Virus record (IMG/VR): IMGVR_UViG_3300044844_000506
Coordinates: 47,613-111,612 of that record
Strand: one strand, 5' to 3'
From: a virus
DNA: 64,000 nt
Shown here: positions 36,353 to 61,118 of the stretch, piece after piece
How positions within the stretch are numbered: the first letter of the stretch is position 1
How the letters are laid out: every line of letters begins with the position of its first letter
Notes under the pieces: generated by a model
The model's database searches: none
What the model saw: the letters and a program-made list of their open reading frames with translations, nothing else
Told to the model about the DNA's origin: nothing
Position numbers and translations under genes: made by a program

Positions 36353-38419
36353 CTATTCTGATTGTCTTACCCCTGTGAGAGGTGTTTTTCTTGTTTCAGC
36401 CTTTGGTCTAGTTTGAGCAGCTATTTTTTCCGTAGCTTCCGTCTGTCTTCTTGCTAATTCTAATCTTTCTTGATCCATTTCCCAATCATTTCTCAAATCA
36501 GCAGCTTCCACATCACCTCTTTTTCTTCCATTTGGAGCGTAAGTGAAATCAGGGGTTCCGTCTGAATACCTTCCACCAGCAAAATCTGCAAGATCTCCTC
36601 CATCTGGACCACCAGTCCAAGTTGTAAGCTCAACCTCTTTATTTCCAGATCGGGCTTTTTGTTGTTGTATATTCTTAGCACCTTGATTTTTTAATTCCTC
36701 AAGGTCTAATGATTTGTTAAGTTCCGAAATTTGTTCTTTAGTATTAGCTTGAGATTGTAATGAATCTGTAAGTTTCGAAATTTGTTTTTGAGCATCAGCT
36801 TGTTGGAAAGTTTTTTGTGCCCTTATTTTTTGTAATTGATTTCGTTTAGTATCATATTCTAAATTTCTTTCAATCATACTAGCTTTAGCTTGGTTAGCTG
36901 CTTCTTGATTTTGTTTTAATTTATCTTCTATAGATTGTAATCTGTCTGCCTCTTTTTTATCTGCTTTTTCTACAAGGTCCATTATACCACCAACAATAGC
37001 TATAGTACCTCCTACAACAAATGCACCTTTTGCAAATTTTCCTACATTCTTTAATAGAGATCCTGCTTTAAAAACATTTTTTCCAGATGCTTCAGCAGCT
37101 TTTTCTAGTGCACCTTCTGCTGCTTCTGTTGCGGCTTCTGCTGCCGCTTCTGCTGCTTCTGTTGCAGCTTTTGCTTTTCCTCCTTTGTTTAATACTTTTC
37201 CGAGTATTCCTCTACCTTCTTTACCTAGTGAATAAGTTTTAGATGCTAATTTAAGTCCTTCTGCTGCTGATATAGCTATTATAAGAGTTTTTAATAAATC
37301 TCTCTGCTCTACAGCAACATCAATCATTGAATCTGTTCCATTATATAAAAACTCTTGTTGCTTACTAAAAGTCTCATCAATAGAAGTTTGAAGTGTCTGA
37401 TTCGCTTTTTTTCTATCAGCCTCGTCTCTTGGTTGTCTTTGCTCAATTTTTGACATAGCATTAGCCATAAGACCTAATTTACCAAACATATCTTCCGTTA
37501 CAGCCAATCCTTGTACAGCTAAGTTATTCCCTGAAATAGCTGTCTTATTAAATGTTCTGGTGGTTTCTGCCGCTTTATTAGCTATCGTAGTTAATAGTCT
37601 AGCTTGTTCTTCTGGATTAGAAGATTTTAAAAATTTATCTACTTCTTGTTCAATACCTAATCTAACTTGATTAGGTAATGATTCTATGGTTGTCATTTCA
37701 GAAACGAACTGAGCTAAACTTTCTTCTGAACCTTCACCTAATTGAGCAGCCGCAATAGCTATTCCTTCTTGAAATGATCCTGCGGTATCTAATAAATTAA
37801 ACTTAAGTAACTCCCCTTGAACCCCTTCTAAAGCAGCAACTATAGTTTCAGTTTTAGTTCCATAAGTTGCTGAATTTGTTGAAACTGTTTTAGCTAAATT
37901 AGATAACTCCTCATTAGTCATACCTCCAAGTACCTGACTTTTTCTCATAGCACCAAACATTCTACGAGAATCTTGGTTTGTAAGAATCATGGTTGCCCCT
38001 AATTCTCTCATGCTATCTGGGAGATCAACAAAACCTGCCTCTAAACCTTGTAAGTTAGATTCTACTTGCTTTAAAAATCCACCAGTCCCTTGTATAAACT
38101 TTTCTTCCTTTCCTTTAGTTAAATCTCTAGAAGTTCTACCAAACGCTAAGGCTCTAGTTCGGTCTTCTATAGACTTAAACCCTGCTGCGGTAAGCTGTTT
38201 AAGCATTTGACCTGAACCAATAGGATTCATTGTAGCAGCATAATAATTAAGTCGTTGCTTAGATAATAATGAACCTAATTGTAATTCTTTTTTAAGTTGT
38301 TTTTCTTTCTCTCTACCTAATTTTAGGTTTTCTATTTCTCTACGAATTTCCTCTTTCTTGATCTGAGTCTCAAGTTTTTTTATGCGTTTTTCATCAATTT
38401 CTTCTGGTGTTGGAGCCAT
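36353..38419 (-). CDS. Tape measure protein
   Basis: 688 residues, mostly helical. An N-terminal Lys/Glu coiled coil (residues 5-55) is followed by an Ala/Gln/Thr-rich region, a hydrophobic segment likely to cross a membrane (GAFVVGGTIAIVGGIMDLV near residue 470), an Ala/Glu repeat just before it (AATEAAEAAAEAATEAAEGA), and a second coiled coil. This matches tape measures of contractile tails; T4 gp29 is 590 residues. Position upstream of the tube/baseplate genes fits. It overlaps the upstream gene by one base. Confidence 0.8.
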   Translation of the reverse strand: MAPTPEEIDEKRIKKLETQIKKEEIRREIENLKLGREKEKQLKKELQLGSLLSKQRLNYYAATMNPIGSGQMLKQLTAAGFKSIEDRTRALAFGRTSRDLTKGKEEKFIQGTGGFLKQVESNLQGLEAGFVDLPDSMRELGATMILTNQDSRRMFGAMRKSQVLGGMTNEELSNLAKTVSTNSATYGTKTETIVAALEGVQGELLKFNLLDTAGSFQEGIAIAAAQLGEGSEESLAQFVSEMTTIESLPNQVRLGIEQEVDKFLKSSNPEEQARLLTTIANKAAETTRTFNKTAISGNNLAVQGLAVTEDMFGKLGLMANAMSKIEQRQPRDEADRKKANQTLQTSIDETFSKQQEFLYNGTDSMIDVAVEQRDLLKTLIIAISAAEGLKLASKTYSLGKEGRGILGKVLNKGGKAKAATEAAEAAAEAATEAAEGALEKAAEASGKNVFKAGSLLKNVGKFAKGAFVVGGTIAIVGGIMDLVEKADKKEADRLQSIEDKLKQNQEAANQAKASMIERNLEYDTKRNQLQKIRAQKTFQQADAQKQISKLTDSLQSQANTKEQISELNKSLDLEELKNQGAKNIQQQKARSGNKEVELTTWTGGPDGGDLADFAGGRYSDGTPDFTYAPNGRKRGDVEAADLRNDWEMDQERLELARRQTEATEKIAAQTRPKAETRKTPLTGVRQSE

Positions 38420-39320: not shown

Positions 39321-39447
39321 TAACGATTGGCTAGATTTAAACTTTAAACTAGATTATATAGAAAGTAGAGAACCAGGGTTAGGTGGTTGTCTTGTTTTGT
39401 GTTTCTTTGCTGCTGCTGCTATTTGCCTCGTTAGTACTCTGTTTTGA
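39307..39447 (+). CDS. Possible 46-aa membrane peptide overlapping the nuclease gene
   Basis: ATG at 39307 overlaps the upstream stop by 14 nt. It starts MTLFDNDWLDLNFKLDYIES and ends in one hydrophobic stretch (CLVLCFFAAAAICLVSTLF). Its 3' half is antisense to the Ser-rich tail of the nuclease gene. The poly-Ala arises from a GCT repeat that reads as poly-Ser on the other strand, so one of the two readings may be accidental. Confidence 0.25.
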   Translation: MTLFDNDWLDLNFKLDYIESREPGLGGCLVLCFFAAAAICLVSTLF

Positions 39448-40209
39448 TCTGGTTTCTTTATTCTCTTGAATCAAGCGGATAATAGTATTCTGATCCGTAA
39501 ATAGTGGGCATACATATTTAAACCCACACCAATCGCAAAACCGATTTCTAATAGGCTGGAAATCGGCTTTAGCTTTTTTTCTAATTGTCCAAACCTCATT
39601 CTTGATGTCTTGGATGAATTTAGACACTTGAGGATATTGGAAAGTTACATAAACAAAATTACCTGTAATAGGATAAAAGTGTCCACAGGTAATTTTGTTT
39701 ATTGGAACATTCCAATTTTTACTAATCGAAACAGCATAGCCTATTAGCTGCTTATCAGTAAAAAGCTCTAACTTAGTCTTTTCTCTCTTACTAGTTTTAT
39801 AGTCTACAATCATGATAGAGCCGTCTTCAGCTTTAAGAACTCTATCTATAATACCGATATAAGCAAAGTCATCAATCTTTAACTCTTCGTTTAGCTCAAT
39901 CCCGACAGTTTGTGCCTTTGAAATCTTAGAATTAAACTCAAAGAAGTTTTTTAGACACTTTGGAATAACCTTGTCGTAATCCTGATCGTACTTATAAGTT
40001 GGCTTAACTTCTTCAGCTATCTTAGTTAAATCTTCTAAGGAACTGGTGTTTACTCCCAACTCAAAGACTTTATGGATGTAGCTTCCAAAAGCCATAGCAG
40101 TGTCGCTTCTCTGCTCTGGCATCTTTTCATGATACCTCACATAGTACTTGTAAGGACATTCCCTGTAGTTATCTAGTTTGCTATTACTTGCTTGTACGAT
40201 GAAGACCAT
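39379..40209 (-). CDS. RecB/Cas4-type PD-(D/E)XK nuclease with iron-sulfur Cys set
   Basis: 276 residues. Motifs in order: C18 (YRECPYKYY), H46 (FGSYIHKVFE), D122 (IGIIDRV), D136 and K138 (IMIVDYKTSK), Q154, and C225, C228 and C234 (FCDWCGFKYVCP). This is the full catalytic set plus the four Cys of AddB/Cas4-type Fe-S nucleases (PDDEXK_1). It would act as a DNA exonuclease or end-processing enzyme in recombination-dependent replication or host DNA degradation. The C-terminus is Ser/Thr/Asn-rich and unstructured. It lies next to a divergent primase gene. The gene carries a perfect 18-bp inverted repeat in its coding sequence. Confidence 0.88.
   Translation of the reverse strand: MVFIVQASNSKLDNYRECPYKYYVRYHEKMPEQRSDTAMAFGSYIHKVFELGVNTSSLEDLTKIAEEVKPTYKYDQDYDKVIPKCLKNFFEFNSKISKAQTVGIELNEELKIDDFAYIGIIDRVLKAEDGSIMIVDYKTSKREKTKLELFTDKQLIGYAVSISKNWNVPINKITCGHFYPITGNFVYVTFQYPQVSKFIQDIKNEVWTIRKKAKADFQPIRNRFCDWCGFKYVCPLFTDQNTIIRLIQENKETRSKQSTNEANSSSSKETQNKTTT
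39649..39702. repeat. Perfect 18-bp inverted repeat inside nuclease gene
   Basis: Arms ATAAACAAAATTACCTGT (39649-39666) and ACAGGTAATTTTGTTTAT (39685-39702) flank an 18-nt spacer. It lies within the coding sequence, at codons for INKITCGHFYPITGNFVYV. Confidence 0.9.
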
Positions 40210-40243
40210 GCTTTTGTTACCTTTGGTTACATATAATTATATT

Positions 40244-41239
40244 ATGAACTCCATAAACTTAGTTGACTTTCTAGAGCCTTATCTGGTATCTAAGTTTACT
40301 AACTATAAACTTTCTGGTCAGAATTTTATGACTAATTGTCCTTTCTGTGACGATTATAAAAGAAAGCTAGGAGTTCATCTTGATACTGGTCAATACCATT
40401 GTTTTATTTGTGATGCTAGGGGAGAGTTTGTTAGCTTATACTCTAAGCTGGAAAACATCTCTGTATTTCAAGCTCAGATACAGCTAAATTATAAGACTTT
40501 CTTAGCAAAACCAAAAGAAGCTAACGCTAAGAAAGTTGTATCAATAAATTCTATCGAAGACGAGATTAACACCTTCGATACTGTGACTTTAGAATCTTTT
40601 GACAGTCCTGATTCTTTAGTTCAACAAGCATGGTGTTACCTATATTCTCGGAAGCTATTCGATTTACATAATCTAGATAATAATAGCTTCTATATTGGTA
40701 GACAGGGGAAATTTGACAACCGTCTAATAATACCTTATATCTACAAACAACATATTCTCTACTTTCAAGGTCGATCACTACTTGAAGGAGTAAAACCAAA
40801 GTATCTAAGTCTAGATGCATCTTACGGAGTTCGCGCCGCAGATATTCTTTATCCTTTTGAATTAAACTCAAAGGAAGTAGTAGTTTGTGAGGGTCCGATT
40901 GATGCTCGTTCATTACAACTTAGAGGAGTAAACGCTACCTGCACAACAGGATGCTCTATGTCCAACAACCAGATTGAAATTCTTAAGAACTGGGGAGGAA
41001 AAATCATCATCGGTTACGATAATGATAAAGCAGGACTTAGAGGCATTGAAGAGGTTGATAAGTTGAGAAGGAAAAAGAATATGCCACCTATTCACGTTTG
41101 TCATCCTCCAAAGCAGCATAAAGATTGGAATGCCGCACATATAGAAAATGTCAACCTTAGTGAGTGGGTGGCATCAAATACGTTTGAATATAAATTTGAA
41201 AATATTATAGAAGAAAAATTACGTCAGTTGGAAATGTAA
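40244..41239 (+). CDS. DnaG-type DNA primase (T4 gp61-like size)
   Basis: 331 residues from the start MNSINLVDFLEPYL; an in-frame upstream ATG at 40178 would run into the divergent nuclease gene and adds only hydrophobic filler. Zinc ribbon: C32/C35 (NCPFCDDY) and C53/C56 (YHCFICDARG), the CHC2-type primase finger. Toprim: E216 (VVVCEGPIDARS) and D259-N-D261 (IIIGYDNDKAG), with a late KDWNAAHI loop. It makes RNA primers at the replication fork. Divergent from the nuclease with 34 nt between starts, an A/T-rich stretch likely to hold promoters for both. Confidence 0.93.
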   Translation: MNSINLVDFLEPYLVSKFTNYKLSGQNFMTNCPFCDDYKRKLGVHLDTGQYHCFICDARGEFVSLYSKLENISVFQAQIQLNYKTFLAKPKEANAKKVVSINSIEDEINTFDTVTLESFDSPDSLVQQAWCYLYSRKLFDLHNLDNNSFYIGRQGKFDNRLIIPYIYKQHILYFQGRSLLEGVKPKYLSLDASYGVRAADILYPFELNSKEVVVCEGPIDARSLQLRGVNATCTTGCSMSNNQIEILKNWGGKIIIGYDNDKAGLRGIEEVDKLRRKKNMPPIHVCHPPKQHKDWNAAHIENVNLSEWVASNTFEYKFENIIEEKLRQLEM

Positions 41240-42148
41240 TAAGTCTGTAACAAATGTTTGATTTAGTATATCAAACTTAGCTTGTAGAGCGTATGTTCCA
41301 ACAACCGATCCCATATTACCTGCAAGAGCTTCTGGATGTGTTGCAAGAGCATTAGTATCAAAGTTGAAGACTAATGTATTATCGCTTGTAATTTCTATAG
41401 TAGAGCTAGTTTGTGCAAAAGACGATACTGTAACCTGTGCTGGTAAGTTTGGTGTTCCGTCGTTAATTTTTAGTATCTTAAATTGAGGATTCTGTATTAC
41501 GCTATCTCGGAAGATATTCTTAACTTCCTGAGGTAGATCTGTATTTCCTATAGTAATATCTGTTCCAACTTTTAAATCGACTTTTGATCCTAATCTTAGA
41601 TACTTAGGATGTAATTGGTTTCTAACTGTAAGTAGTAGTGGCTCATTTAATGTATAGAATGTATCATTAAATAAGTGGAACTTTTGAATTATTGTCTGCC
41701 AAGACCCTGATTGGAATAGCTTGGCAGTCCATACGGCAATATAGTCACCAACTGCGCTGGCGCTGTTTGCTACAGTGCTTCCTTCGTAAACACCTGATAG
41801 AGATGCTCCACCATCAAGAACTACAGCGTAGAGTCCTGTAGAAATCTTGAAAATACCACTAGCTGTAGACCCTGGAGTATAATTAGAAGCGTTAAATGCT
41901 GAGTTAGAAGTTAGAGTAGATGAATTAGCAAAATTCATCTTAGGAGTTAATCCAGATGTTAAAAGATTATCTGAGTTTAATACAGTATCAGGATAAGTAT
42001 TAGAAGATAGATCAAAGATAGTTATAGAAGAAATCTGGTAAGGATCCGTATAGATTCCACCATTTAAAAAGTAAGCACGGATACCTACCTTCTGTAAAAC
42101 AGAAGGTCTATTATTAACATCTACTATAGAATAACCGTTTATCTGCAT
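41219..42148 (-). CDS. 309-aa virion structural protein, unknown
   Basis: Beta-rich, Ser/Thr/Asn-rich. The N-terminus MQINGYSIVDVNNRPSVLQK is followed by strands such as GIRAYFLNGGIYTDPYQISS and, late, TYALQAKFDILNQTFVTDLL. The composition and minus-strand late orientation suggest a neck or head accessory protein. It overlaps the 3' end of the convergent primase gene by 21 nt. Near its start the DNA forms a perfect 9-bp hairpin (ACCTTCTGT/ACAGAAGGT, 42087-42107). Confidence 0.55.
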   Translation of the reverse strand: MQINGYSIVDVNNRPSVLQKVGIRAYFLNGGIYTDPYQISSITIFDLSSNTYPDTVLNSDNLLTSGLTPKMNFANSSTLTSNSAFNASNYTPGSTASGIFKISTGLYAVVLDGGASLSGVYEGSTVANSASAVGDYIAVWTAKLFQSGSWQTIIQKFHLFNDTFYTLNEPLLLTVRNQLHPKYLRLGSKVDLKVGTDITIGNTDLPQEVKNIFRDSVIQNPQFKILKINDGTPNLPAQVTVSSFAQTSSTIEITSDNTLVFNFDTNALATHPEALAGNMGSVVGTYALQAKFDILNQTFVTDLLHFQLT

Positions 42149-42149
42149 A

Positions 42150-42332
42150 TTACTTCTTCATGTATTCTAGCTTCTTTTTACACTCTTCATGATAAAAGTC
42201 TATAAATAAACTTCTTTCAAGATAAGTAAGATCTTTTATATCTTTAAAACTGGAAAATCCAACTTTACTTATCAATATATAGGCTTCTTCATACAGATCT
42301 TTTAAGTTTAAATTATTAATTAGCTGATTGAA
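42150..42332 (-). CDS. 60-aa -1 frame extension of the gp26-like gene
   Basis: Open frame without an ATG until its last four codons, reading FNQLINNLNLKDLYEEAYIL then SKVGFSSFKDIKDLTYLERS and ending KKKLEYMKK. It is reached from the gp26-like gene by one -1 slip on eight T. The protein-like composition and lack of a start argue for a frameshift product similar to the extended tail-assembly chaperones of other tailed phages. A sequencing error in the T run is the simple alternative. Confidence 0.6.
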   Translation of the reverse strand, partial: FNQLINNLNLKDLYEEAYILISKVGFSSFKDIKDLTYLERSLFIDFYHEECKKKLEYMKK

Positions 42333-43039
42333 AAAAAATCAACACCTACATTCATAGTAACAGTGCTAATTTGTTCACATTCTTTATTACAACAGCTATA
42401 CTGAGCATCCGTTACCATGCCATAATCACTTAAAGATATAGAATTAATTAACATTTTAATATCTTTTAATGGGAATCTAGGATCACCTAATAATTCAGCA
42501 ATCTGAGCCTTATCTAAGCAATCGTCTACAGATTCAACAAATCTCCATAGGTTATCTACAGATACAACGTAGTTTTTATCATCTGATCTTCTTGGAGTTC
42601 TAACTTTAGCTTTTACGTTTGTAACTGGAAGTAATATCTCTCTAGGATCAGTAATAGTATCTTCAACAAAATTTATTGGCAACTGACTCATCTTAAAATC
42701 TAAGACGTTCTCTGTATTGCAATAAGGGCATTTAGTTGTTACTTTATAATTATCTCCATAAGATATTTCTCTAATCTTAAACAAGATGGCTAAAATATCC
42801 ATAGAAACTAATTCTTGAGGATCTACACCTTGAACACAGTTTTCTAAAAGATAGTCAATCGGGGATTCATTATTTGATCTTTGTAAAATCCCTGCTTCAT
42901 CTTTAAAAGCCATAGGACGGACTCTAACACCGTTTGCTGCATCAAATGACTTATAAAATATACCTTTAGAAGGTAACATAACTTTAAATGATAAGTCCTT
43001 TGGGATGTGATTAAGTAACTTATCTACTAGCTTTACCAT
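42320..43039 (-). CDS. gp26: gp26-like baseplate/tail assembly protein with zinc ribbon
   Basis: 239 residues. Starts MVKLVDKLLNHIPKDLSFKV, with a later VRVRPMAFKDEAGILQR segment and Cys pairs C104/C107 (KCPYCNTENVLDF) and C216/C217/C221 (SCCNKECEQI) that form a likely zinc ribbon. This fits the T4 baseplate-protein family (gp26-like, PF12322) as I know it in T4-like phages. gp26 acts in hub/tape-measure assembly. The 3' end carries an eight-T run from which a -1 frame continues for 60 residues. Confidence 0.75.
   Translation of the reverse strand: MVKLVDKLLNHIPKDLSFKVMLPSKGIFYKSFDAANGVRVRPMAFKDEAGILQRSNNESPIDYLLENCVQGVDPQELVSMDILAILFKIREISYGDNYKVTTKCPYCNTENVLDFKMSQLPINFVEDTITDPREILLPVTNVKAKVRTPRRSDDKNYVVSVDNLWRFVESVDDCLDKAQIAELLGDPRFPLKDIKMLINSISLSDYGMVTDAQYSCCNKECEQISTVTMNVGVDFFSIS
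42331..42338 (-). promoter_or_regulatory. Candidate -1 frameshift slippery run (eight T)
   Basis: On the minus strand the gp26-like gene reads GAT TTT TTT TCA ATC AGC TAA. A one-base backward slip gives TTT TTT TTC AAT CAG and enters the open -1 frame. The in-frame stop comes only three codons after the run. Confidence 0.55.
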
Positions 43040-43198: not shown

Positions 43199-44581
43199 AT
43201 GTTGATTAAGTGTGATGTATTAAAATCCCAAATATTTACAGATAATCCAGAATTACTTAAGTCTCTTTGTTCGTTGTATGCTTTTAAGGTTGAAGGTGCA
43301 GCATACTCACCACAGTACAAAAGAAGAGTTTGGGATGGAAAGAAACACTTCATTTCTGGTACTGGAGTATTTTCCACAGGGTTACTAAGTAGGCTACTAG
43401 AAGATTTAAATAGAATAAATATAAAGCCTAAAGTTGAAACCGATTTTGAAACTAGTAACCTTCCTGAGATTCCTGTAGAATTACAAAATTGGAAATTTAG
43501 ACCACATCAAGAAGAACTAATAAAAAGAGCTTTAGAGGTTAAAAGAGGTATACTGAAAGCTCCTACAGGATTTGGTAAGACCAGTGTTATTGCTTACCTT
43601 ATTGATAGATTTAAAGACAAGAATGTTTTAGTATTGTTTAACAGAACTCAGTTAATTACACAAACGTATGAGTTTTTAACTAAAACAATAAAAGTTCCTT
43701 ACAAGATAGGTTTAGCTTTTGGTGGAGTTGATGAAGGAAGTAATATTACATTAGCTTCTGTTCATAGTTTAGAGAAAGTTGTAGGAACTCCTGCTGAACA
43801 TCCAGATTTACTAATTGTTGATGAAGTACATGAATTCTGTAGCGGTAAGTTTACTAGTCAAGTAATTAATGCGTTTCCTTCAGCTAAATATAGGTTTGGT
43901 TTAACTGCAACTGTTCCTACAGATAAAGTAAAGTTATACACTTTAGAAGGAGCCTTTGGTCCTGTAGTATCTTCTGTAGGAACACAGGAATTAATTGATG
44001 AAGGTTATCTGGCTAAACCAGTAATACAAATAATTCCTGTAAGTTGTAGCTCTGCACCTTCTGATACAGTTTACATTGATTGGTACAAAGATTATATCGT
44101 AAATAACGATTACAGAAACAATCTTATTAAAACGATTGTTGTTAAAGCATTGGAGAAACCTAATGCTAAAATAGCGATCATTGCGAACAGCCTAGAACAC
44201 GCCGAGAAGCTGAATGATCTCTTACCCCATTCTGTCAAGCTGGAGGGCAAGAACTCGATCTCAGAGAGAACTGAGGCTATTCAGGAGTTTGTGGCAGGTA
44301 AGTATAGAGTGTTGATAGGCACAACGATCCTTCAAACGGGTATAGACATCAAAGAGATCACTCACTTAATTAATGCCAGAGGATTAAAGTCTGAGACTCC
44401 AACCATACAAGCCTTAGGAAGAGTCTTAAGAAAAGATAAAGATCCTAAAGTATACTTTTATGATTTCTTAGATGAAGATGGTTGGTTAATGGAAAAGCAT
44501 TCTAGATCTAGAATTAAAGCATACAAAAAAGAGGGACATATAGTAACTATTATGCCAAGGATCTCTGATGGAACAAAATAA
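43199..44581 (+). CDS. uvsW: UvsW-like superfamily 2 helicase
   Basis: 460 residues (T4 UvsW 503). The N-terminal domain includes SPQYKRRVWDGKKHFISGTG (residues 37-56), a UvsW-type DNA-binding segment. Helicase motifs: WKFRPHQEELI (about 98-108), Walker A APTGFGKT 121-128, Walker B/DEVH 208-211, LTATVP 235-240, and motif VI near QALGRVLRKDKD. UvsW remodels branched DNA and R-loops and switches replication from origins to recombination-dependent mode. The start at 43199 is the only ATG that keeps the N-terminal domain complete. Divergent from gp26. Confidence 0.92.
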   Translation: MLIKCDVLKSQIFTDNPELLKSLCSLYAFKVEGAAYSPQYKRRVWDGKKHFISGTGVFSTGLLSRLLEDLNRINIKPKVETDFETSNLPEIPVELQNWKFRPHQEELIKRALEVKRGILKAPTGFGKTSVIAYLIDRFKDKNVLVLFNRTQLITQTYEFLTKTIKVPYKIGLAFGGVDEGSNITLASVHSLEKVVGTPAEHPDLLIVDEVHEFCSGKFTSQVINAFPSAKYRFGLTATVPTDKVKLYTLEGAFGPVVSSVGTQELIDEGYLAKPVIQIIPVSCSSAPSDTVYIDWYKDYIVNNDYRNNLIKTIVVKALEKPNAKIAIIANSLEHAEKLNDLLPHSVKLEGKNSISERTEAIQEFVAGKYRVLIGTTILQTGIDIKEITHLINARGLKSETPTIQALGRVLRKDKDPKVYFYDFLDEDGWLMEKHSRSRIKAYKKEGHIVTIMPRISDGTK

Positions 44582-59530: not shown

Positions 59531-60090
59531 ATATTACAGAACAAATTGAAAAGTGTTGGTTTAGAACATTCTCAGGCAAGATTATTGATCCTGAAAATTT
59601 AAAGCCTGAGGACATTGATCCCGTAGATATTGCCAGATCATTATCTTTACAATGTCGTTACGGTGGTCAGATTGTTAGATTTTATAGTGTTGCAGAGCAT
59701 AGCCTAAATGTAATGCAAGAAGTTTCGAATCACATTGCAAGTATGATTCGAGTTGATAAGTCAAACATTATTCTAGGAGCACTACTTCATGATGCTAGTG
59801 AAGCCTATATGGCAGACATCCCTACTCCATTTAAGAAGTTGCTGCCAGATTATAAGAAGATGGAGAATAACGTGATGAGGGTTATTCACAAACGCTTTAA
59901 TATTGACCTTGATGTCTTTGAGGAAGAAGTGATTAATCGTTATGACAAGGCAGCATTAACATATGAGATGCCCAACTTATTTAACTATCCTGAAGCAAAA
60001 TCTACAAGCAAGTTAGAATATTATACACCTGACCAAGCCTTCTCGCTTTATCTTAACACCTTACTCCGTCTAGAAAAGGAAATGCAATGA
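59527..60090 (+). CDS. HD-domain 5'-deoxynucleotidase (YfbR-like)
   Basis: 187 residues with metal-binding motifs H58 (YSVAEHSLNV), HD 88-89 (ALLHDASEAY) and the following DIPTPFKKLL turn, all as in YfbR-type dNMP phosphatases. The segment RYGGQ (residues 44-48) precedes the first His, as in phage versions. It hydrolyses deoxynucleoside monophosphates, so it would adjust dNTP pools. It overlaps the genes on both sides by 4 nt. A DatZ-like activity (dATP removal in Z-DNA phages) cannot be excluded from sequence alone. Confidence 0.85.
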   Translation: MNITEQIEKCWFRTFSGKIIDPENLKPEDIDPVDIARSLSLQCRYGGQIVRFYSVAEHSLNVMQEVSNHIASMIRVDKSNIILGALLHDASEAYMADIPTPFKKLLPDYKKMENNVMRVIHKRFNIDLDVFEEEVINRYDKAALTYEMPNLFNYPEAKSTSKLEYYTPDQAFSLYLNTLLRLEKEMQ

Positions 60091-61118
60091 TTGAATTTAC
60101 TTATGATGATGTTCTTATTCTTCCACAATACTCTGAAGTTCGTAGTAGGAGTCAATGTGATATCTCTACTACACTAGAATCTAAGCATGGATTCAATGTT
60201 AAGGTAAAACTTCAGACTCCGATTATAGCCGCAAATATGGATAGTATTTGTGGGTATGAGATGGCTGATTATCTTGACTCAATGGGTGCTGCTGGCATTA
60301 TTCATAGGTATATGCCTGTTGAGGAGACAATCAAACTCATTAACATTTCAAAAATGAAAAACCTATTTTTATCTGTTGGTACATTAGATAATGATAGTGC
60401 TAGAATTGATTCTATTATTCGTTATGCTCCTGGATATGAAGAAGCTGTGCCAAATGGCAAGGTTCACATTTGCGTGGACATCGCACATGGGCACTCTATT
60501 GGTATGAAGGAGACGCTACAGTATATCCGTAATAAGGGATTTAAGAATTTATTAATTGGTGGTAATGTTGCTACAAGTGAAGCTGCTCAGGATTTAGTAA
60601 GTTGGGGTTGTGATGTTGTTAAGGTTGGTGTAGGGCCAGGGGCAGTTTGTTCGACTAGAACAAAGACAGGTGTAGGTAGACCTCAGTTTAGGGCAGTAGG
60701 TGAATGTTCTTATACTGCGGAAGTGCAAGTTATTGCTGATGGTGGATTTAAGTATGTTGGAGACTTTGCAAAGGCTATGGCATTGGGTGCAAAGGCTTGT
60801 ATGACTGGTTCATTCTTCGCAGGATGCGATTACACACCGAACTGGAAGTATGATGAGGACTTGCTAAACTATCGTGGAATGGCAAGTGCAGAGGCTCAGA
60901 AGGAGTTCAAGGGCAAGTTTAGTAATGCTGAGGGTATTTCAACTTACGTTAAGAATAAAGGATTAGGTAGCACAGAAAAGGTTCTTCATGAGATTCAGGA
61001 GGGGTTGCGATCCTCTATGTCTTATGTTGGGGCTTTGGATATGGGTCAGTTTGCTGCCAAGGCAAGATTTATCCATGTCTCGAATAACACTCTCTTAGAA
61101 AACAAGACAAGACTATAA
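60087..61118 (+). CDS. guaC: GMP reductase-like enzyme (IMPDH/GMPR family)
   Basis: 343 residues, a TIM barrel without the CBS insert of IMP dehydrogenase. The loop GVGPGAVCSTRTKTGVGRPQ carries the catalytic Cys188; the STRTKTGVG part matches GMP reductase (CTTRKMTGVG-like) rather than IMPDH. Other family marks: TPIIAANMDSICGYEMA, HICVDIAHGHS, IADGGFKYVGD and MTGSFFAGC. GMP reductase turns GMP into IMP with NADPH, feeding adenine nucleotide synthesis. It forms a tight unit with the HD gene. Which of the two family reactions it performs is inferred from the loop. Confidence 0.88.
   Translation: MIEFTYDDVLILPQYSEVRSRSQCDISTTLESKHGFNVKVKLQTPIIAANMDSICGYEMADYLDSMGAAGIIHRYMPVEETIKLINISKMKNLFLSVGTLDNDSARIDSIIRYAPGYEEAVPNGKVHICVDIAHGHSIGMKETLQYIRNKGFKNLLIGGNVATSEAAQDLVSWGCDVVKVGVGPGAVCSTRTKTGVGRPQFRAVGECSYTAEVQVIADGGFKYVGDFAKAMALGAKACMTGSFFAGCDYTPNWKYDEDLLNYRGMASAEAQKEFKGKFSNAEGISTYVKNKGLGSTEKVLHEIQEGLRSSMSYVGALDMGQFAAKARFIHVSNNTLLENKTRL

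Follow-up and report, generated by a model that had tools for sequence, protein, structure and literature searches.

Here we report the organization of a gp26-like locus on the minus strand of a viral DNA stretch of 64,000 nucleotides (the window), which is part of a 111,612-base record of an uncultured virus. The gp26-like gene ends at a run of eight T, beyond which a second frame remains open, and the locus comprises the following features.

42320..43039, minus strand: gp26-like gene with a zero-frame product of 239 aa, the putative short chaperone form (TAC-N), supported by the open reading frame, matches to PF12322 and phrog_150, and an AlphaFold model.
42332..42338, minus strand: slippery heptamer T TTT TTT, the first seven bases of the 8-T run at 42331-42338, identified from the sequence and the alignment of relatives.
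42320..42322, minus strand: zero-frame stop codon TAA, three codons past the heptamer, identified from the sequence, with identical spacing in 62/62 close-group loci.
42150..42332, minus strand: -1 frame extension of 60 codons plus stop, the putative C-terminal part of a long form of about 296 aa (TAC-NC).
41219..42148, minus strand: downstream gene of 309 aa without assigned function, which adjoins the extension stop.

The 3' end of the gp26-like gene reads GAT TTT TTT TCA ATC AGC TAA in the zero frame. An initial, sequence-only reading had described eight T three codons ahead of the stop, followed by a 60-codon -1 frame without a usable start, and both statements are borne out on the minus strand. 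A -1 slip on T TTT TTT yields VDFF followed by FNQLINNLNLKDLYEEAYILISKVGFSSFKDIKDLTYLERSLFIDFYHEECKKKLEYMKK and a stop, i.e., an extension (FNQLINN...KLEYMKK) that runs for 60 codons past the slip and ends at 42150; the translated junction matches the peptide VDFFFNQ that had been predicted. The sole ATG of the extension is codon 57, and no start-like codon precedes the TTG at codon 19. The locus combines an in-frame slippery heptamer of the form X XXY YYZ with an overlapping open -1 frame, the arrangement by which programmed -1 ribosomal frameshifting is recognized. Among the 51 window ORFs of at least 100 aa, only the gp26-like gene combines such a heptamer within the final 12 codons with a -1 frame that continues open for 150 nt or more past the stop, and shuffled extension DNA stayed open in 0.2% of the trials.

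The assignment of the gene as gp26-like, also made in the initial reading, is backed by Pfam, PHROG and the predicted fold. The fused protein matched the Pfam family T4_baseplate (PF12322) with an E-value of 1.6e-14 and 54.6 bits (curated cut-off 24.5) and the PHROG baseplate hub family phrog_150 with an E-value of 4.9e-18, aligning with the latter through the junction (profile positions 14-280 of 282). For structure prediction, the 239-aa form and the extension were modelled as two separate halves rather than as the fused -1 product. The AlphaFold model of the 239-aa form (pLDDT 92) had its best viral match in BFVD with the baseplate hub subunit of SP-15 (E 1.6e-17) and also matched gp26 of Aeromonas phage 25 (E 1.8e-5), and the extension was modelled as all-helical (pLDDT 86.5; helices 12-26, 31-35 and 39-61). 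Sequence and fold searches of the PDB gave no useful match. The surroundings of the locus are T4-like, with matches to portal gp20, terminase, capsid, protease and baseplate wedge; a separate gp51-like gene was not found in the 111.6-kb record, which may be incomplete.

A candidate tape measure gene (36353-38419, minus strand, 688 aa) is located several genes downstream of gp26, not adjoining it, and gave no confident family match; its product contains one alanine-rich and one glycine-rich hydrophobic stretch. At 39379-41239 and 43199-44581, tail genes on both strands are intermingled with replication or repair genes, which gave matches to a PD-(D/E)XK nuclease, a CHC2/Toprim primase and a UvsW-like helicase. 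The plus-strand ORF at 60087-61118, the start of which (MIEFTYDDVLILPQYSEVRSRSQCDISTTLE) appears to resemble IMP dehydrogenase/GMP reductase, is a possible auxiliary metabolic gene.

When the window gp26 alone was used to search viral contigs, no relative emerged, and a DNA-level match of the locus was not found in annotated phages. Kin of the locus were gathered via the terminase and capsid genes instead. In the first kin, all 12 gp26 loci had T TTT TT[T/C], a stop exactly three codons on and a -1 extension, with the extension consensus FF.REL...L..LL.EAYILV....SY.DVK.MTR.ER..FL. After the extension, the relatives show a coding start (..NRP.VL..) similar to that of the downstream gene in the window (41219..42148). 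A wider scan found T TTT TT[T/C] exactly three codons ahead of the zero-frame stop in 62/62 non-redundant loci of this close group (window included), and the homologous -1 extension was 149-182 nt long in both sets (12/12 and 62/62); the relatives share ancestry, and these conservation counts overstate the number of independent events. In a group of cyanophages, the heptamer T TTT TTC was found one codon ahead of the stop in 32/32 loci, with a -1 extension in 29 loci, i.e., in all those where the contig end does not cut it. The T run and the extension, whose conservation had been proposed as a check, were kept throughout the relatives of the window's group, and a chance origin of the slip site is untenable because of this conservation.

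Purifying selection acts on the extension in the -1 frame only, with a median dN/dS of 0.40 in the close group and 0.12 in the cyanophages, as opposed to 0.9-1.9 in the other two frames. The slip-site codons are fixed beyond what the amino acids require: in 62/62 close-group loci, the codon ahead of Phe-Phe ends in T (background 72%) and the first Phe of the pair is TTT (background 79%). Conserved, selected in the -1 frame and lacking an early start of its own, the extension has the properties that characterize the product of a -1 frameshift.

A folding-energy scan along the gene revealed a single sharp dip per group, located right after the slip site. The folding z-score directly 3' of the slip was -1.95 in the close group and -1.76 in the cyanophages, compared with about -0.2 over the rest of the gene. 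In many close-group loci, a stem starts 8 nt past the heptamer, and the stems covary, with arms that differ in sequence yet pair (CTAGAAGCAG/CTGCTTCTAG, CTAATAGAG/CTCTATTAG, TAGAACCT/AGGTTCTA). An RNA structure that stimulates slippage is usual, though not obligatory, downstream of a -1 frameshift site. The window and its nearest relative (L179) have no strong hairpin where many relatives have one (weak or absent); the window may therefore slip less efficiently or rely on another stimulator, and its 8-T run may help slippage.

The same two products could arise if RNA polymerase slipped on the 8-T run and generated mixed mRNAs, some with the extension in frame; eight T are near the run lengths that allow transcriptional slippage, and the products would look identical. 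Such an origin is very unlikely because many relatives have just six T before a C at the slip site (39/62 close-group loci and 32/32 cyanophage loci), and the conserved, exact tandem Phe heptamer with its 3' stem-loop suits ribosomal slippage. We give slightly less credence still to the extension as a separate, internally started small gene without fusion, as which it is annotated in the cyanophage S-RIM50 (a 45-aa 'gp51' in the extension frame). Potential starts do exist, as the extension carries an ATG at codon 3 or 19 in many cyanophage loci and the TTG at codon 19 in the window, but the 'gp51' of S-RIM50 is only part of the -1 extension, its annotated start trimming the upstream -1-frame residues, and the conserved slip site is explained by fusion only. 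Moreover, an early ATG in the extension frame of relatives, which the sequence-only reading had named as evidence against a slip, is absent from the close group, where the earliest ATG among 93 loci is at codon 25, usually at codon 33, and eight of the 93 have none. The least credible origin is that one continuous 296-aa gene has been split, through an error in sequencing or assembly or through a recent frameshift mutation: homopolymers are error-prone, nine T would bring the extension in frame, and an exact-pattern scan that allowed 5 to 12 T at the slip site found no second assembly, but every relative is split alike in independent assemblies and has its stop exactly three codons past the heptamer, two of them (L266 and L272) also have eight T in a geometry identical to that of the window, and a 9-T reading would violate a rule kept in all relatives.

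Ribosomal frameshifting in the family appears not to be confined to the -1 direction. The SP-15-like group (Bacillus phage SP-15, Listeria phage LIS04, Streptococcus phage GXN1 and metagenomic relatives) shares with the window a homologous gp26, a similar extension and Phe-Phe codons at the junction, but its extension is in the +1 rather than the -1 frame, as was the case in 27 of the 30 non-redundant loci of that search. The loci with a +1-frame extension are L002, L003, L004, L344-L374 and L378. Near the Phe-Phe codons, most SP-15-like loci offer TTT.C and some CCC.A as +1 re-pairing sites, and judging from these codons, they are likely to be P-site +1 slips. A -2 slip was considered for this group and rejected, as several loci are without -2 re-pairing near the junction and have +1 re-pairing there. 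The +1 extension of L356 ends early (..QDQRCFFCLY), whereas that of its near relative L378 runs on (..QDNGVSFSYTD..), which may reflect an indel or an assembly error. The comparison suggests that the shift direction can differ between homologues. The gene order in SP-15 and LIS04 is tail tube - gp26 - extension - tape measure. The interval between tail tube and tape measure is the classical position of chaperone genes, and the gp26 family is tied to chaperone function because the SP-15/LIS04 locus occupies it.

In T4, gp26 and gp51 are hub assembly chaperones, and gp51 is required, yet missing from the final particle (PMC3004832). Two articles (PMC12846349, PMC10885494) name Vladimirov et al. 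(2022) as having identified the tail assembly chaperones of T4-like phages; the former also credits them with the poly-T -1 signals in T4-like TAC-N genes, and the latter states that the long form is a separate gene in some T4-like phages. T4-like gp26/gp51 resemble the window in having short and long chaperone forms; they differ from it in that the long form is sometimes encoded by its own gene, whereas in the window one gene appears to yield both via a -1 shift. The gp26 and gp51 of Salmonella phage Melville are paralogues of each other (blastp E 2e-7), and the motif MIPVERSIALSL at the end of Melville gp51 aligns collinearly with DLTYLERSLFIDF of the extension, although the profile match between T4-like gp51 and the extension is weak. 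The 2022 study of Vladimirov, Gautam & Davidson (Virology 566:9-15) reportedly assigns the T4-like chaperone genes as gp26/gp51, in agreement with the family matches obtained here.

A second precedent is gpG/gpGT of phage lambda, where the ribosome slips by -1 shortly before a small tail gene ends and so produces a C-terminally extended minor chaperone; the 2016 review that describes it considers the frameshift conserved across long-tailed phages 'except T4' (PMC5009743). The window likewise has a predicted late -1 slip near the end of a tail gene, but its slip site is T TTT TTT rather than that of lambda and its tail contractile and T4-like, and the likeness to lambda G/GT is one of mechanism. 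A further precedent is the TAC locus of phage Adele, in which the 3' end of TAC-N carries a poly-T (GTTTTT) -1 site and the -1 frame is open in all genomes (PMC12846349). The window shares the poly-T -1 site at the 3' end of TAC-N with this locus of the Vandenendeviridae/Andersonviridae, which are other phage families than that of the window and are likened to it by their slip site.

The initial reading had regarded a chaperone pair as plausible, and this interpretation is now supported by the conserved slip site and extension, the family and the gene position in SP-15 and LIS04. On the sequence evidence, the locus very probably specifies both tail assembly chaperones of a contractile-tailed, T4-like phage, one a short form and the other a -1-frameshifted long form. 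By its anatomy and conservation, the one locus is predicted to give both a short and a C-terminally extended product, which defines a TAC-N/TAC-NC pair. Most ribosomes would stop at 42320 and release the 239-aa gp26-like form (TAC-N). A minority would slip one base back on U UUU UUU, with tRNA-Phe in both sites; they would avoid the UAA, append about 60 helical residues and release a product of about 296 aa (TAC-NC). If the two forms act as gpG/gpGT do in lambda, the tape measure protein would be coated by the N-terminal part common to both, with the extension serving to recruit subunits of the tail tube or hub; the frameshifting itself and its efficiency, like the binding to tape measure and tube, we infer. 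The mechanism is already known from phage tail genes (lambda G/GT and T4-like chaperones), and the evidence strongly supports the window as a new example.

On balance, we favour the view that a single chaperone family has taken three routes to its long form, namely a -1 slip at T TTT TTY (the window's group and the cyanophages), a +1 slip near the same Phe-Phe codons (27/30 loci of the SP-15-like group) and a separate paralogous gene (T4-like phage Melville), and that the shift direction probably flipped in evolution while site and extension were kept. Beyond the frameshift itself, the most can be learned from the difference between +1 and -1 among homologues and from the covarying stem-loop.

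The small ORFs annotated in SP-15 (SP15_046, hypothetical) and S-RIM50 ('gp51') are parts of frameshift extensions and do not in themselves point to separate genes (L003:2794-2913, L009:2744-2881). Annotation overlooks the long form or lists it separately as 'gp51' or as a hypothetical fragment, as in S-RIM50 and SP-15, and recognition of the pair would put this right in a large group of uncultured T4-like phages. The family also allows a comparison of -1 slippage, +1 slippage and gene duplication as ways to set the ratio of the two chaperone forms.
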